A stretch of DNA of 46,479 bases from positions 1 through 46,479 of the forward strand of contig NZ_LAJC01000047.1 in the NCBI RefSeq assembly GCF_000981225.1, given 5' to 3'. This document shows positions 4,462 to 33,392 of this stretch, piece by piece. The translations under genes and the position numbers were made by a program. Positions within the stretch are counted from its first letter, which is position 1; every line of letters starts with the position of its first letter. Origin of the DNA: Allosalinactinospora lopnorensis (lineage in GTDB: Bacteria; Actinomycetota; Actinomycetes; Streptosporangiales; Streptosporangiaceae). The notes under the pieces are model-generated. The model was not told the origin of the DNA, did not search any database, and worked only from the letters and a program-made list of their open reading frames with translations.

Positions 4462-5544
4462 CACCGCCACGATCGCCCGGGCGTTCGGCACCCCGAGCTT
4501 TTGCAGCAGGAACCGGTCCCCACCGCGGCCGAAGATGACCGGAATCCCAGCGGACCTGGCCAACGGCAGACACGCGGCATGCCGGTCGCGCTCGACCGCG
4601 ACCACGCCAAGGCCAAGCCGTTGCAGCTCCTGGCACAACCGGAGCCCGACCTGGCCGAGCCCCACCACGACGACGTGCCCACTCCGGGGCACCGCCCGCG
4701 TCCCCATCATCCCGGTCAGGCGCAGGGAGGTCATCCGGTCCACGAGCCCCGCGGTGAACAATGCGGAGAACGCCAGTACGCACAGCAGGGTCACCGTCGA
4801 CAGGGCGTGGTACCACGTTGGCGCACGTGCGGCCACTGCGGGCGAGTCCACCGTGGTCAGTGTGGTGGCGGCATGCCACGCCGCGGTGATGACGGGTTCC
4901 CGGAGCACCGCCGCCCCCAGCACGGTGTCGAGCGTGAACACGGACACGAGCCCGAGCAGGCCCACCAGCAGGACCCGCGTAGTGCCCTCCAGAGGCCGCA
5001 GCTGCGCACGGAGCCTGTCCCGCACCGTTCGTCGGCACCTGATCGCGGCCCGTGGGACGCGTTCGACGCGCAGCCCGCTCGCCGTGCGGCGCACCGTGAC
5101 GTAACCATCGGTCTCTCGGCTAAGGCTCACGATGGTCTCGGCGACACACGGGCCGAGCAGCGCCGGGACCAGTGCGTCCGTCATCGCGATCACCGTGCAG
5201 TTCGGGACAGAACGAACCACCTCGTCCGCCACGGTCCTGTCGAAGATCGTGACCAGCAACGGGATCCCCGGCCGTGTGTGCTCCACCAGCAGGGCGTAGC
5301 GCAGGGCCCGGATGTCGTCGCGGGAGACCACCGCGACCGCATCGACGTCATTGGTCAACGCCACCTGAACATCCCGGTTGGACGGGCCGTGCAACCGGCG
5401 AACCGGCCGCCCCCACACGTGGACGTAGGAGGCGACGGCGTCACAGAGATCATCGCCGCCGATGACCAGAAGGCGCCGATCCGAGAGTCCCGCACCACGG
5501 GCGTCCGTACCCGGCATGATCTCCGGTGCTGGCGGGGCCTCCAC
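4153..5544 (-). CDS. Channel-like membrane protein with two TrkA-N/RCK-type NAD-binding domains
   Basis: 463 residues. A GTG start at 5544 follows AGGAG at seven bases. Residues 22-145 form a first Rossmann-like domain (RRLLVIGGDDLCDA). Residues 190-214 form a membrane helix, 219-237 a pore-helix-like re-entrant segment, and 247-267 a second helix. Residues 289-450 form a classical TrkA-N domain with GHVVVVGLGQVGLRLCQEL. The arrangement helix, pore loop, helix, RCK is that of K+ channels, and TLTTV at 228-232 matches the start of the filter. The following residues are DSPAV rather than GYGD. It may be a non-selective channel, a pseudo-channel or a ligand sensor. Monocistronic. Confidence 0.7.
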   Translation of the reverse strand: MEAPPAPEIMPGTDARGAGLSDRRLLVIGGDDLCDAVASYVHVWGRPVRRLHGPSNRDVQVALTNDVDAVAVVSRDDIRALRYALLVEHTRPGIPLLVTIFDRTVADEVVRSVPNCTVIAMTDALVPALLGPCVAETIVSLSRETDGYVTVRRTASGLRVERVPRAAIRCRRTVRDRLRAQLRPLEGTTRVLLVGLLGLVSVFTLDTVLGAAVLREPVITAAWHAATTLTTVDSPAVAARAPTWYHALSTVTLLCVLAFSALFTAGLVDRMTSLRLTGMMGTRAVPRSGHVVVVGLGQVGLRLCQELQRLGLGVVAVERDRHAACLPLARSAGIPVIFGRGGDRFLLQKLGVPNARAIVAVSSAPLENVAVAVAARAVAPDRRIVIRAGGEDDVVAESRSLFRIAMVCDVNQIGGSFIAATALEQRPLATFTADDQLYALLEDGTVLDIGWWRQAPAPCPNAN

Positions 5545-6016
5545 GAATATCTCCTCACGCCGGGAACGACAGCAGGGCCCACGTTAGAAAACCGGTTCCC
5601 CCGACCGCTTGTTCGAACGGCCAACAACGGTGGGGGCGACTTGTCCGCCACAGCGTGGACAGCGTGCGGCGGCCCCCATCTCCAGCGCGCGGGTACCCGA
5701 GCCGGCTTCTTGCCTCCCTCCGGTCGCCCGTCGCGCCACTCCCGGCCGATCCGCTCGTTGGCACCGATGATCCGACACGCTTCTGCGTTACCCACACCTT
5801 GTCGCACAAGCCGGAAGTATGCCTCCCGCTCTCGACGCAGCTTCTTAAAGCCCATCGCACCCCAAAGCCGAGGTGTTGCGACGACCGATAGAACCCGAGT
5901 GCCGCCGTCGCGGGGATCTCGTTCCCCACCACGCTCCCGCATGTGGATCCGACCGCACCAGTTGACCGGCGTTGCCTAGCCTGGAGGGCAACGGTCAACA
6001 CCCCGAGGGAGCCCCC
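5545..6016. other. Gene-poor stretch holding an IS30 remnant
   Basis: Between two real genes. The right half holds the 5' fragment of an IS30 transposase (separate entry). The left half (5584-5696) has a frame with RCPRCGGQVAPTVVGR, which looks like half of a zinc ribbon, but no start, partner cysteines or conserved context support a gene. Confidence 0.4.
5697..5855 (-). mobile_element. IS30-family transposase, N-terminal remnant
   Basis: From ATG at 5855 the minus strand encodes about 53 residues beginning MGFKKLRREREAYFRL, followed by ACRIIGANERIGREWRDG. This is the N-terminal helix-turn-helix region typical of actinobacterial IS30 transposases. After GGKKPAR the similarity stops, and no DDE catalytic domain or terminal inverted repeats can be seen. 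It is the 5' stub of a dead insertion sequence, evidence of past transposition just before the XRE and sulfotransferase genes. Family call by recognition. Confidence 0.6.
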
Positions 6017-7165
6017 GTGACCGACTTCGCTCGCCGCGCCCGCGAGGCCATGCAGGCTCGGGGCGTCTCAACGCGGCAACTCGCCCGCGAACTCAAGTAC
6101 GATCCCGGTTGTCTTTCGCGCGTGCTCAACGGCCGACAGCGCCCGTCGCAACAGTTGGCCGACGCCCTGGACCGGTTCCTGGGCGCGGACGGAACGCTGA
6201 CGGACGCAACCACTGCACCCGATGAACCCTCCGCGGGTTTCCCGGAGGAACCGAGCGGCGTTGATGGCGAGATCGCGCACATGCGCGCCACCATTGATCA
6301 CCTGGTCGCGCACGACAACCGGTACGGCGGGGACGAGATCGCCTCTGCCGCGGTGCGCGTATGGCGCAGCGCGCAACACCGGCTGGACAACGGCGCGATT
6401 CCCGAACCACGCCGGGGGGACTACCTGGCTTCCGCCGCCGAAGTGGCAGAACTGGCAGGCTGGTTGCTGTTCGACGCCGACCAGCAGGACGCTTCCCGCA
6501 CCGCCACCTTGGAAGCGCACATGCTGGCACGCCACGCCGGGGACCGCTCCATGGAGCGGTTCGCGCTGACGAACCTTGCTATGCAGGACGTAGAGGTGGA
6601 TCGCCCCGGAGAGTTCCTGAGGATCGCTGACGAGCTTCTTTCCCACCCCCGTATTCCGCCCCGCATAGCGCTGCTGGCGCGCCTACGGCGAGGACGTGCG
6701 CTCGCGTGTATGGGAGAGCACCGGCGCGCCTTGGACGACCTGGGGACCGCACGCGCCGCCCTTCAGGATTCGATCACCCCGCGCGATCCCGCGTGGACGT
6801 GGTGGGTGAACGACTGCGAGTTGAGCGGACACGAAGGCGAGGCCCTGCTCGCCCTGGGTGACGCCGACGCCGCCGTGCCGAAGATGGAGCGCGCCGCCGA
6901 GTTGTCCGCAGCGTTCCGCCCGGAAGGCCGGGGGACCCTCTATTACCAGGTGTCCCTGGTGCAGGCGTACACGGTGGCCCGGGCATGGCGAGAGTGCGCA
7001 TCGGCTCTGGACGCCATTCCCCCGAAACTGGGATTGATCAGCTCCGGCCGCAACCGCCGCCACCTCCGCACGGCGCTTCGTGCCGTTGGCCGCCACCCTG
7101 GTACACCCACACACCTCTCGGAGCTCGCTCGGGACATAGCTTCCTCCCACCTGACCGCCGCTTAA
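6017..7165 (+). CDS. XRE-family regulator with TPR-like C-terminal domain
   Basis: 382 residues. The GTG at 6017 is preferred because GAGGGAG lies just upstream; an in-frame start at 5972 has no such site. An N-terminal helix-turn-helix (residues 5-55, around STRQLARELKYDPGCLSRVL and RPSQQLADALDRFLG) precedes a long helical region with TPR-like repeats (ARLRRGRALACMGEHRRALDDL, GEALLALGDADAAVPKMERAAEL). Such proteins are common in streptomycetes and relatives as pleiotropic or peptide-responsive regulators, but the ligand and targets are unknown. It follows an IS30 remnant and precedes a gene-end duplication, so this corner is recombination-prone. Confidence 0.75.
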   Translation: MTDFARRAREAMQARGVSTRQLARELKYDPGCLSRVLNGRQRPSQQLADALDRFLGADGTLTDATTAPDEPSAGFPEEPSGVDGEIAHMRATIDHLVAHDNRYGGDEIASAAVRVWRSAQHRLDNGAIPEPRRGDYLASAAEVAELAGWLLFDADQQDASRTATLEAHMLARHAGDRSMERFALTNLAMQDVEVDRPGEFLRIADELLSHPRIPPRIALLARLRRGRALACMGEHRRALDDLGTARAALQDSITPRDPAWTWWVNDCELSGHEGEALLALGDADAAVPKMERAAELSAAFRPEGRGTLYYQVSLVQAYTVARAWRECASALDAIPPKLGLISSGRNRRHLRTALRAVGRHPGTPTHLSELARDIASSHLTAA

Positions 7166-7188
7166 GATCACTCGCCTCCTTCCGCCCC

Positions 7189-7212
7189 CGGCTACGGCTT
7201 GCGGCCGACGCC
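7189..7212. repeat. Left copy of 24-bp direct repeat flanking the sulfotransferase gene
   Basis: Identical to 8159-8182. Read on the minus strand it encodes GVGRKP and a TAG stop, exactly the C-terminus of the PF04672 methyltransferase gene to the right. This copy is preceded (minus strand) by RPGVFQ instead of a methyltransferase body, so it is a stranded gene end. Confidence 0.8.
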
Positions 7213-7298
7213 TTGGAACACGCCGGGTCGGAGAGCCGACCTGATCGAACGGGAAAACCGGTCGCGCCCCGCGGGCCGGGTCGTGTTGAATCTGTCCG

Positions 7299-8066
7299 AT
7301 GCCCCAGATGACGAACGCCGCCGGATGGGCCGATTCGTACCTGGTCTGCGCGACCCCACGCACAGGGAGTTCGCTGCTGTGCGGACTGCTGGCCTCGACC
7401 GGCATCGCCGGATGCCCTGAGGCCTACTTCCGTCAACCCGACGAGCGCTCGTGGGCCCGGCAGTGGCGGATCACTGATGGTTCCGGTGTTTTCCGCTACC
7501 AGGACTACGTGCGTGCCGCGCTGGCCGCCGGCCGCACCGCGAACGGGGTTTTCGGCGCGAAGGTCATGTGGGGGACCCTGGAGGAGGTCGTCGCCAAACT
7601 GGCCGCCGTCCACCCGAGCCTGGCGGATGCGGACCTCGACCTGCTGAACCGGGAGCTCGGCCGTACCCGGTTCGTGTTCCTGCGGCGTGCGGACATCGTG
7701 GCCCAGGCCGTGTCCTGGCTGCGTGCCGAGCAGACCAACCTGTGGTGCGCGGGCCGCCCCGAGCCCTCCGGGGACGAACCCCGCTTCGACTTCGACGGCA
7801 TCCACGACCTCGTCCGGCTGATCGAGGAGCACAACACCGGCTGGCGGGAGTGGTTCGCCTCCTTCGGCATCCGGCCGCACCCGGTCGTCTACGAGGAGCT
7901 GGTCGCCGACATGGCGGGCACCACCCGCGGCGTCCTCGACTTCCTCGGCCTTCCCGCCGGGGCCGCCATCGCGCCCAGGCACCGGCGCCAGGCCGACGAG
8001 CTCAACGCCGAGTGGATCGACCGCTACCGGGCTAAGGTCGCGAAGCGCAGACACCGCCCGGCGTGA
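7299..8066 (+). CDS. Stf0-family sulfotransferase
   Basis: PF09037-type sulfotransferase, 255 residues, the usual length. The Stf0 prototype in mycobacteria sulfates trehalose at position 2 using PAPS. The 5'-phosphosulfate loop is seen near the N-terminus as ATPRTGSSLL, followed by the family's CPEAYF. Other recognisable text is NGVFGAKVMW and FVFLRRADIVAQAVSW. Start is ATG 7299 or the in-frame ATG 7308; neither has a clear ribosome-binding site. No polyketide, glycolipid or PAPS genes are adjacent, so the acceptor is unknown. The gene lies alone between two copies of a methyltransferase gene end, which suggests it arrived as cargo. Confidence 0.85.
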   Translation: MPQMTNAAGWADSYLVCATPRTGSSLLCGLLASTGIAGCPEAYFRQPDERSWARQWRITDGSGVFRYQDYVRAALAAGRTANGVFGAKVMWGTLEEVVAKLAAVHPSLADADLDLLNRELGRTRFVFLRRADIVAQAVSWLRAEQTNLWCAGRPEPSGDEPRFDFDGIHDLVRLIEEHNTGWREWFASFGIRPHPVVYEELVADMAGTTRGVLDFLGLPAGAAIAPRHRRQADELNAEWIDRYRAKVAKRRHRPA

Positions 8067-8158
8067 TCACCCGCCGCTCTGACACCTCCGTTCGTCTCTT
8101 GGGCCTCGCCCGCGCGGCGGCCGGATCCCCGTACGACCGCCCGCGGGTGCCCGCCCGG

Positions 8159-8182
8159 CGGCTACGGCTTGCGGCCGACGCC
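8159..8182. repeat. Right copy of 24-bp direct repeat (3' end of methyltransferase gene)
   Basis: This copy is the native one: it contains the last six codons and stop of the methyltransferase gene ending at 8162. The interval 7189-8158 (about 970 bases) is exactly the segment delimited by the two copies. Confidence 0.8.
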
Positions 8183-8992
8183 GCCGAAGTGGTCCAGCTC
8201 GGAGAGGGTTCCGGCCTCGGGGGGATCGGGGCGCCAGTAGGGGACCGAGACCAGGCCGGGTTCCACCGGCTCCAGGCCGTCGAAGAACCGGGCGAGCTCT
8301 TCGGGGCTGCGGTTGACCCGCGGGTTGGTGCCGACCTCGTTCCAGTGCCGCACCATCGCGTCCATCGTCTCGCCGTCGACGACGTTGGTGTCGTCGCACA
8401 GGGCCAGATAACCACCCGAAGGCAGGGCCGCCATCAGCCGGTCGACGATCGCGTACGCCTCGTCGTTGTCGGTGATGTGGCCCAGGATCCCCATCAGCAT
8501 GAGCGCGACCGGCCGGTCGAAGTCCAGGGTCCGGGCGGCGGCCCGCAGGATCTCGTCGGGCTCGCGCAGGTCGAAGTGCAGGTAGTCGACGCTGCCCTCG
8601 GGCACGCCGACCAGCAGCGCGTGTGCGTGCACCAGCACCAGGGGGTCGTGGTCGACGTAGACGACGCGGGACTCGGGCGCGACCGTCTGCGCGACCTCGT
8701 GGGTGTTGTTGGCGGTGGGCAGGCCGGTACCGATATCGAGGAACTGGCGAACTCCCGCCTCGCCCGCCAGGTGGAGGACGGCGCGGTTCAGAAAGGCCCG
8801 GGAGGCGCGGGCGATGGCGAACATCTGCGGGTTGCTCTTGGTGATCTGCTCGCCGACCTCTCGGTCGGCAGCGTAGTTGTCCTTGCCCCCGAGCCAGTAG
8901 TTCACCACCCGGGCGGAGTGGGGGACGGAAGGGTCGACCAGCAGTTCGGGATCCTCGGGCGAGGGCCCGGGAGTAGGGGAGGAGCCGGTCAT
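8162..8992 (-). CDS. PF04672 (DUF574) SAM-dependent methyltransferase
   Basis: 276 residues, full length. This family, abundant in mycelial actinobacteria, has the early signature HSARVVNYWLGGKDNYAADR (residues 25-44) and the SAM motif FLDIGTGLPTANNTHEVAQ (about 84-102). An acidic residue for ribose binding lies in VVYVDHDP. It ends in GVGRKP, typical for the family. Substrates are unknown for nearly all members. ATG start at 8992 with GAAGAA upstream. Monocistronic, with its 3' end repeated at 7189-7212. Confidence 0.85.
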   Translation of the reverse strand: MTGSSPTPGPSPEDPELLVDPSVPHSARVVNYWLGGKDNYAADREVGEQITKSNPQMFAIARASRAFLNRAVLHLAGEAGVRQFLDIGTGLPTANNTHEVAQTVAPESRVVYVDHDPLVLVHAHALLVGVPEGSVDYLHFDLREPDEILRAAARTLDFDRPVALMLMGILGHITDNDEAYAIVDRLMAALPSGGYLALCDDTNVVDGETMDAMVRHWNEVGTNPRVNRSPEELARFFDGLEPVEPGLVSVPYWRPDPPEAGTLSELDHFGGVGRKP

Positions 8993-9129: not shown

Positions 9130-10695
9130 ATGATGGGTGCGATGGCCTTCCGGGAACTGACCCCCGTGGCGTTCTTGGAGCGTGCGGCCGCGGTGTTCGG
9201 CGACCGCCCGGCCGTCGTGGACGGGAACCTGCGCTACACCTACCGGGAGTTCTGGGCGCGCGCGCAGCGGCTGGCCGGGTTGCTCGCCGAGAGCGGGATC
9301 CGTCCGGGCGACCGGGTCGCGGTGCTGGCGCCGAACACGCACGTGCTGCTGGAGGCCCACTACGGTGTGCCCCTGGCCGGTGCGGTGCTGGTGGCGCTGA
9401 ACACGCGCCTGGCCGCGCCCGAGATCGGCTACATCCTCGAACACAGCGGGGCTCGGCTGGTCGTCGTGGACACCGAGTACCGGCCGCTGCTGGAGCAGGC
9501 GCTGGACCACATCGACGACCGGCCGGAGGTCGTCGACTCGCAACGGTACGGCTCGCTGCTGGAGGCGACGCGGCCGCACCGGACCGATGTCGCCGACGAG
9601 CGCTCCCTGCTCTCGATCAACTACACCAGCGGCACCACCGGCCGCCCCAAAGGCGTGATGTACCACCACCGTGGCGCCTACCTGCAGGCACTGGCGATGG
9701 CCTACCACGCGAAGCTCGACACCTCGTCCAGATATCTGTGGACCCTGCCGATGTTCCACACCAACGGCTGGTGCTTCCCGTGGGCGGTGACCGCGGCCGG
9801 CGGCGTACACCACTGCCTGCGCAAGGTCAGCGCCGAGGAGGTGTGGCGGGCGGTGCACGCCGAGGGCGTCACGCACTTCTGCGCCGCGCCGACGGTACTG
9901 GCGATGCTCGCCGACTACAGCGGCGCCACCGCGCCCGCACGGCCGGTGCGGGTGTTCACCGGGGGCGCACCGCCCTGGCCCGCGCTGCTGGAGCACATGG
10001 GCGCCCTGGGGATCGACGTCCGGCACCTCTACGGCCTGACGGAGACCTTCGGCCCGGCCGTGGTGTGCGAGTGGCAACCCGAGTGGGACGACCTGCCCGC
10101 CGACCAGCGCGCGCGGCTGGTGGCCCGGCAGGGGATCGCCAACGTGGTCGCCGAACCGGTCCGCGTGGTCGACACGGAGGGCGAGGACGTGCCCTCCGAC
10201 GGGCGCACGCCCGGCGAGATCCTGCTGCGCGGCAACGACGTGATGCTCGGCTACTACCGCGACGACGAGGCCACCGCCGCGGCCACGATCGACGGCTGGT
10301 TCCGCAGCGGCGACCTGGGGGTCCGGCACCCTGACGGCTACGTCGAGCTGCGCGACCGCATCAAGGACGTGATCGTCTCCGGCGGCGAGAACATCGCCTC
10401 GGTCGAGGTGGAGAATGCCCTCACCGAACACCCCGACGTGCTGGAGGCCGGGGTAGTGGGGACGGCGCACCCCAAATGGGGCGAGGTGCCCGTCGCCTTC
10501 GTGGCCCTGCGCGCCGGCGCCTCCGCCGATGAGCGGGAGCTCATCGACTTCGTCCGCGAGCGGATCGCCCCGTTCAAGGCCCCGCACCGGGTGAACTTCA
10601 GCGAGCTACCGAAGACCTCCACCGGCAAGCTGCAGAAGAACGTCCTGCGCCAATGGAGCGCTCAGCCCGGCCACGGCCCGCCCTCCCCGGAGTGA
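9130..10695 (+). CDS. Acyl-CoA synthetase (AMP-binding, FadD-like)
   Basis: 521-residue ANL-superfamily enzyme that would activate a carboxylate through an acyl-AMP to an acyl-CoA. Motifs in order: P-loop YTSGTTGRPKGVMYHHRG (about 173), TNGWCFPWAV, YGLTETFGP (A5), the hinge region GWFRSGDLGVRHPDGYVELR (A7/A8), GGENIASVEVE, and the C-terminal lysine in PKTSTGKLQKNVLR (A10). The YHHRGAYL stretch resembles the medium/long-chain branch related to dimethylsulfoniopropionate and methylmercaptopropionate CoA ligases. Substrate is not decidable. AAAGGGG precedes ATG 9130. It ends nine bases before the convergent GH89 gene. Confidence 0.85.
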   Translation: MMGAMAFRELTPVAFLERAAAVFGDRPAVVDGNLRYTYREFWARAQRLAGLLAESGIRPGDRVAVLAPNTHVLLEAHYGVPLAGAVLVALNTRLAAPEIGYILEHSGARLVVVDTEYRPLLEQALDHIDDRPEVVDSQRYGSLLEATRPHRTDVADERSLLSINYTSGTTGRPKGVMYHHRGAYLQALAMAYHAKLDTSSRYLWTLPMFHTNGWCFPWAVTAAGGVHHCLRKVSAEEVWRAVHAEGVTHFCAAPTVLAMLADYSGATAPARPVRVFTGGAPPWPALLEHMGALGIDVRHLYGLTETFGPAVVCEWQPEWDDLPADQRARLVARQGIANVVAEPVRVVDTEGEDVPSDGRTPGEILLRGNDVMLGYYRDDEATAAATIDGWFRSGDLGVRHPDGYVELRDRIKDVIVSGGENIASVEVENALTEHPDVLEAGVVGTAHPKWGEVPVAFVALRAGASADERELIDFVRERIAPFKAPHRVNFSELPKTSTGKLQKNVLRQWSAQPGHGPPSPE

Positions 10696-32354: not shown

Positions 32355-33392
32355 TCAGGCCTCGTCACCGAGGGCCGAGGCCGCCTTGCGCTTGCGCGCG
32401 AAGTACATCGCAGCGCCGCCGCCGCCGAGAGCGGCCGCGGCCGCGGCGATCAGCCCGGCCAGCGCCGAGCCAGTCACGGGAAGGCCGCCGGACGCCTGCT
32501 CGGAGTCGTCGCCGGGCGCAGCCTGCTCGTCGCCCTCGTCGGCCTCGTCCTCCTTGCCGTCCTCGGGCGCCTCTTCCTCCTTCTCGCCCTTGTCACCCTC
32601 GTCGCCCGGCTTCTCGGGCTTCTCGGGCTTCTCCTCCTCAGGTGCCTCCTCCTCGGGGGCCTCCTCCTCGGAGATCTTCTTCATGCAGCTGGCCTCGGCG
32701 GTACCGAGAACGGACACGGCGTTTCCGCAGATGTCCACGGCGGCGTTCACCGGAACGTTCACCTCGTTGCCGCTGGCGGTACCGCCGGAGCCGTTGTTCT
32801 CCGAACCGGCCCCGTTGTCCTCGGACTCCTGCATGTCGCCGACCATCGCCTCGCAGTCGGCTTCGGACTCGCCGAGCACCGCAAGGGAGTTCCCGCAGAT
32901 GTCGACCGCAACGTCGACCGGCACGTTGATCGTGTTGCCGCTGGCGGTACCGCCGGACTCCGAGCCGCCCTCTTCACCGCCGTCCTCGCCGGACTCCTCG
33001 GCCATGTCCTCCATGACCTTGGTGCAGCCCGCCTTGGAGAGGCCGCCGACAGCGGCGGAGTTGCCGCAGATGTCCACGGCGGCGTTCACGGGAATGTTCA
33101 CCTCGTTGTTCTGGGCGACGCCATCGGAGCCACCGGATTCCGAGCCGCCCTGCCCCTCCTCGCTCTCGGCGTAGAGGGTCTCCGCCACCTTCTGGCACTC
33201 GGCCTCGGAGATACCAAGGGCGGCGAGGGAATTACCGCACAGCTCGGCCTTGACGTTGGCCGGAACGTTGACCTGGTTGCCACTGCCCACGTCGTCGGTT
33301 CCGGGGGCCGCGAACGCGATGGAGGTCGCCCCGCTGACCAGCCCTGCTGTGAGGACGGTGACGGAGGCGGAGGCGTACAGCTTCTTACGCAT
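32355..33392 (-). CDS. Long chaplin with four chaplin domains and LPVTG sortase signal
   Basis: 345 residues. Signal peptide to about residue 29 (LVSGATSIAFAA). Four chaplin domains follow, starting GNQVNVPANVKAELCGNS, NNEVNIPVNAAVDICGNS, GNTINVPVDVAVDICGNS and GNEVNVPVNAAVDICGNA. Each has a Cys in the CGN motif and a second near its end. Highly acidic Glu/Gly/Ser linkers of about 30 residues separate them. A long Glu/Pro/Lys stalk leads to LPVTG near residue 304, a hydrophobic helix and an RKRK tail for sortase anchoring. Chaplins assemble into hydrophobic amyloid on aerial hyphae. The usual streptomycete long chaplins carry two domains and LAxTG. Confidence 0.9.
   Translation of the reverse strand: MRKKLYASASVTVLTAGLVSGATSIAFAAPGTDDVGSGNQVNVPANVKAELCGNSLAALGISEAECQKVAETLYAESEEGQGGSESGGSDGVAQNNEVNIPVNAAVDICGNSAAVGGLSKAGCTKVMEDMAEESGEDGGEEGGSESGGTASGNTINVPVDVAVDICGNSLAVLGESEADCEAMVGDMQESEDNGAGSENNGSGGTASGNEVNVPVNAAVDICGNAVSVLGTAEASCMKKISEEEAPEEEAPEEEKPEKPEKPGDEGDKGEKEEEAPEDGKEDEADEGDEQAAPGDDSEQASGGLPVTGSALAGLIAAAAAALGGGGAAMYFARKRKAASALGDEA

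Follow-up and report, generated by a model that had tools for sequence, protein, structure and literature searches.

How a single sulfotransferase gene came to lie between two identical copies of the end of a neighbouring methyltransferase gene is the question raised by this locus of Allosalinactinospora lopnorensis, which was analysed within a window of 46,479 nucleotides, the whole stretch of DNA considered here. The gene in the middle (7299–8066, plus strand) encodes an intact Stf0 sulfotransferase, which matches the Pfam profile PF09037 over the full domain (profile positions 1–243 of 244, E 2.9e-60) and, as the sole solved structure, PDB 1tex, itself an Stf0 sulfotransferase (E 1.5e-28). 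On the minus strand it is followed by an intact methyltransferase gene (8162–8992) of the family PF04672, named Methyltransf_19 or DUF574, which again covers the full domain (profile positions 8–268 of 268, E 8.5e-100) and matches the structures 3giw (named DUF574) and 2qe6; the literature excerpts available to us make little mention of the family as PF04672 or DUF574. The two are flanked by a gene for an HTH_31 regulator (6017–7165, plus strand; PF13560) and by an AMP-binding ligase gene (9130–10695, plus strand; PF00501), the latter divergent from the methyltransferase gene. Our preferred answer, held tentatively and with slightly less than even confidence, is that the locus is a one-off recombination scar, left when DNA carrying Stf0 lodged at the end of the PF04672 gene.

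Sequence comparison within the window confirmed the exact 24-bp direct repeat of the original prediction, positions 7189–7212 being identical to 8159–8182. The right copy, which reads GGC GTC GGC CGC AAG CCG TAG CCG on the minus strand, is the true end of the methyltransferase gene and comprises, as had been claimed, its last six codons (GVGRKP) and stop, together with 3 bp beyond the stop. The left copy, also on the minus strand and separated by 23 bp from the stop codon of the HTH_31 gene, reads in the same frame (..PGVFQGVGRKP-stop). The enclosed segment (7213–8158) does hold Stf0 as its only identified gene, as predicted, but it is 946 bases long and not 970, which is the spacing of the two copies from start to start. 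The repeat had also been judged unexpected by chance and, as DNA, it is indeed unlikely to have arisen in this way, since exact direct repeats within 2 kb did not exceed 17 bp in any of 20 dinucleotide shuffles of the window and the 24-mer occurs only twice in the genome (5.89 Mb, 220 contigs), even with up to three mismatches allowed. With only two copies in the genome, a REP-like repeat was rejected, and so was a terminator, both copies folding about like their shuffles (left copy, z –0.3 and –0.7; right copy, z –0.3 and –1.6, the latter value being equalled or bettered by 14 of 200 shuffles). Repeats of this kind are uncommon, yet others exist: across 1.14 Mb of loci, most pairs of exact repeats measuring 24 bp or more at spacings of 200–2500 bp stem from two array-like loci, and six or seven other places, one of them with a 26-bp repeat in this window, are not array-like. 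The window itself contains, at 32725–33089, two further exact direct repeats near one another, of 26 bp (32725/33064) and 24 bp (32766/32934).

Beyond the 24 bp, the two copies show no similarity above that of shuffles, i.e., the resemblance ends at the repeat edges, as in an insertion scar with a short duplication. Profiles built from 80 family proteins detect no significant methyltransferase sequence in 7166–7298 or in 8067–8161; the best match at the left copy, obtained with the tail profile and in the frame of that copy, has a non-significant E of 0.07 (4.2 with the full profile), no PF04672 sequence is found upstream of the left-copy tail, and the original statement that this copy lacks a gene body is thus borne out. 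That the whole methyltransferase gene was recently duplicated in tandem was rejected as well, because the stretch 8067–8158 does not match the region upstream of that gene. Since there is no similarity beyond the 24 bp, no methyltransferase sequence and no duplicated upstream region, the left copy is an isolated gene end at which no gene remains detectable.

In the recombination scar that we propose, DNA carrying Stf0 would have inserted right at the end of the methyltransferase gene, in the space between it and the convergent HTH_31 gene, through a short-homology or end-joining event that duplicated the terminal 24 bp on the other side of the insert; the methyltransferase gene would have remained intact, and nothing left at the locus would be able to move again alone. 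We infer both this enzymology and an arrival of Stf0 in one step, after the other two genes. What can be seen directly is the bounded exact repeat, the intact methyltransferase and Stf0 genes and a second duplicated PF04672 3′ end elsewhere in the genome. The scar is favoured by the fact that a sharply bounded, exact repeat flanks exactly one gene, which is patchy in the family, as well as by that second local duplicate. Furthermore, when 7189–8158 are removed on paper, the stop of the HTH_31 gene comes to lie 23 bp from the methyltransferase gene end, which would be an ordinary spacing for convergent genes. Scars of this type are produced by homology-facilitated illegitimate recombination and similar processes, and like this locus they consist of a single gene with a direct repeat at its edges, no recombinase and intact neighbours; they differ from it in that the repeat here is as long as 24 bp and coincides with a conserved gene end, and that the case is known from its sequence alone.

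Several points stand against this reading. For end joining, 24 bp would be a long duplication, and the conservation of codons in PF04672 tails lets a part of the identity arise independently. Nor does Stf0 look foreign in composition: with a GC3 of 0.898 it is close to the methyltransferase and ligase genes (0.924 and 0.942). The HTH_31 gene, with its lower GC3 (0.785), does look foreign, which suggests that it, too, arrived late. Orthologues of the HTH_31 gene (72 and 69% identity) have no methyltransferase nearby in the stretches fetched, one of which is a contig of only 3.8 kb; therefore, nothing shows that the HTH_31 and methyltransferase genes were adjacent before Stf0.

Stf0 relatives (E ≤ 1e-20) occur in 15 of the 341 family genomes, this one included. 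Plasmid carriage of Stf0 was considered and rejected, as only eight of 72,556 plasmid records hold a relative and the best of these is 39% identical. No PF04672 match (E ≤ 1e-5) was found in 32 loci with Stf0 relatives (24 distinct places), and in the 31 of them with a located Stf0 gene (23 distinct) no exact repeat above 14 bp brackets it within 1.5 kb to either side, or within the shorter flanks that some loci have; in the loci examined, neither the repeat nor the methyltransferase appears to travel with Stf0. Likewise, none of the window's neighbour genes lies beside Stf0 in the eight relative loci compared (L066, L067, L072 and L224–L228). The best relatives of the HTH_31, methyltransferase and Stf0 genes are 72, 74 and 69% identical, respectively, and in the compared loci all of them lie among other genes. 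No locus syntenic with the window was present among 24 loci or regions compared with it, in which no neighbour of the window's gene is shared, and a few of the 24 share one distant, weakly similar ORF. An empty site was sought by following the relatives of all three genes (HTH_31, Stf0 and methyltransferase) across up to 341 family genomes, which include no other member of the genus, and was not found.

The original prediction had also proposed that other PF04672 3′ ends be examined for inserted cargo. A second end in this genome, on contig C41, is locally duplicated: an orphan end there belongs to a direct repeat of 155 bp that matches exactly the 3′ end of a full PF04672 gene 986 bp away. 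The duplicate, however, flanks the methyltransferase itself and not a foreign gene, so the parallel with the Stf0 locus is only partial. It lies upstream of the same gene (locus L077, 5685–5839 and 6671–6825) and adjoins a DUF397 gene that has lost its N-terminal part and is thus truncated to the C-terminal one; the XRE–DUF397 pair has been described (PMC6262351). Overall, two of the 13 full PF04672 genes examined in this genome have their 3′ end repeated nearby over at least 24 bp, vs. none of 52 in relatives, which are the best matches to the window's gene rather than random picks. Flanks of 1.5 kb or more on either side were available for 10 of the 13 and for 48 of the 52, and one of the 13 ends 4 bp before a contig end. 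Two relatives have end copies of 20 bp, one in tandem 18 bp away and one inverted. By a hand calculation made post hoc, the chance that both cases of at least 24 bp fall in this genome is 78/2080, about 0.04, and the comparison is at most suggestive of local duplication of PF04672 gene ends in this genome.

A rather unlikely explanation, which nevertheless survives better than the remaining ones, is that a second PF04672 gene once stood here in tandem, of which the left copy is all that remains, its body having been lost and Stf0 now lying in its place. Broken copies are in fact plentiful in this genome, in which 27 profile matches (some genes giving two) correspond to 13 full genes and several genes with internal deletions. 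On contig C17 two full PF04672 genes stand in tandem with 916 bp between their stops, close to the 970 bp of the present locus, and the left copy has, two residues ahead of GVGRKP, an F that agrees with the tails of the family. The C17 pair, however, is merely 34% identical, and neither 7213–7298 nor 8067–8158 holds any trace of a gene body or of a duplicated upstream region. The comparison of tails weighs in the same direction: among the 2415 pairs formed by 70 PF04672 tails, four share 20 to 22 bases around the stop and a single one has 24 or more exact bases there in common, namely 37, this being a pair of close relatives from two genomes, 76% identical. Since the identity is exact, the edges are sharp and no second gene is detectable, one insertion accompanied by a short duplication of the gene end is somewhat more likely than such a relic. 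Recombination between paralogous methyltransferase genes, which the original prediction had named as one source of the repeat, cannot be told apart here from a single insertion with a short duplication. Read as a scar, the locus would be a legible record of how a gene was acquired, in a genome in which the PF04672 family is being broken and rearranged.

The same tails are the basis of another explanation, which we consider improbable, namely that an unrelated stretch or an old tail came to match the gene end through conserved tails and a narrow, GC-rich codon choice. The tail GV[GA]RKP is a hallmark of the PF04672 family, conserved and similarly coded, and between different genes the exact identity around the stop reaches 22 bases. 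At least one match to the 24-mer within three mismatches occurs in 133 of the 341 family genomes, a good part of these matches being due to chance, as a reversed control also matches in many genomes; at least nine sites in other family genomes differ by one mismatch only, and the four of them with loci are all PF04672 gene ends. Within this genome, GV[GA]RKP-stop occurs six times, at four full gene ends and at two orphans (the left copy and C41:15787), in a search in which the reversed control pattern matched once. Against such an origin, the two copies of the 24-mer are the only ones genome-wide within three mismatches and they lie 970 bp apart, at a length well beyond the 17 bp of the shuffles; for a given pair of tails, independent convergence would be improbable yet possible.

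Equally doubtful is the reading closest to the gene-end-targeted event of the original prediction, in which the 24 bp would be attL and attR of a tyrosine-recombinase element that was reduced to, or always consisted of, one Stf0 gene. The arrangement resembles that of tyrosine-recombinase elements targeting gene 3′ ends, with an intact gene end, cargo and a displaced tail, and an exact 24-bp core that is present at both ends, stops just past the stop codon and in one copy completes the target gene. It differs from them in the lack of a recombinase between the repeats, where Stf0 is the gene identified, in a cargo of just 946 bp and in the lack of any related element. In fact, Pfam detects no integrase or transposase family in the five genes around the repeat or in the ORF at 5358–5942; the latter had looked by eye like the start of an IS30-type transposase, which is not claimed, as Pfam gives no match. 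The same ends do not recur at other sites or in other genomes: none of the 52 PF04672 gene ends of relatives has a local copy of at least 24 bp, the 23 distinct Stf0 loci hold no comparable repeat, and among the near matches of the 24-mer listed, 29 of which have loci besides the window's own, there is no orphan GV[GA]RKP-stop tail, 17 being PF04672 gene ends and none of the other 12 reading GV[GA]RKP-stop (two read GRKP-stop with no methyltransferase). A site-specific element is therefore not upheld. That PF04672 3′ ends might serve as attachment site for tiny single-gene cassettes without a recombinase, mobilised in trans and including the Stf0 unit, is very improbable. An assembly artefact joining two places through the repeat is the least credible of all, for although the genome is a draft in 220 contigs, four of which end within or at the end of PF04672 genes, the genes flanking the repeat are intact and assembler misjoins through only 24 bp are rare.

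Following the scar led to a better-supported case, in which a serine integrase apparently uses a conserved PF04672 motif as its attachment site. On contig C41 (L268, 4989–6491 and 6499–7119) the ORF of a large serine recombinase, with Resolvase and Recombinase domains, begins within tens of bases of a PF04672 fragment that starts at codon ~72, and on contig C111 an N-terminal part (L267, 7180–7445) stops at these codons. At the break, CTGGACC is common to both junction stretches, whose longest shared word is 7 bp; since a second 7-base word is also shared, a CTGGACC core would rest on position and not on length. In a relative (G242), the closest integrase, of about 58–60% identity, adjoins a C-terminal PF04672 fragment on contig C58 (L278), and an N-terminal fragment covering profile positions 5–75 is found on contig C34 (L305); the longest words shared by these junctions are not at the break. 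We infer that the two halves were once one gene in each genome. Both here and in G242, this integrase clade thus appears to attach at the conserved SAM-binding motif at codon ~75. Six more distant integrases have no PF04672 match in their 1.5-kb flanks, and among the literature matches listed no title or abstract opening names this integrase target. The integrase is not the cause of the 24-bp repeat, which lies at the other end of the gene: one large-serine-integrase element appears to interrupt a PF04672 gene in this genome (C41 and C111), but it acts at codon ~75 rather than at the 3′ end and leaves no long repeat.

The four contig ends within or at the end of PF04672 genes (end of C18, start of C108, start of C116 and end of C12) fall at codon ~75 in three cases and just after the stop in one, and their end words of 20–30 bp were not found elsewhere among the loci fetched from this genome. 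The internally deleted PF04672 copies at C4:120359–120782, C21:7875–8253 and C8:61971–62105 are each broken at RQFLD (~75) or no more than about two codons beyond it, which is the place of the integrase junction.
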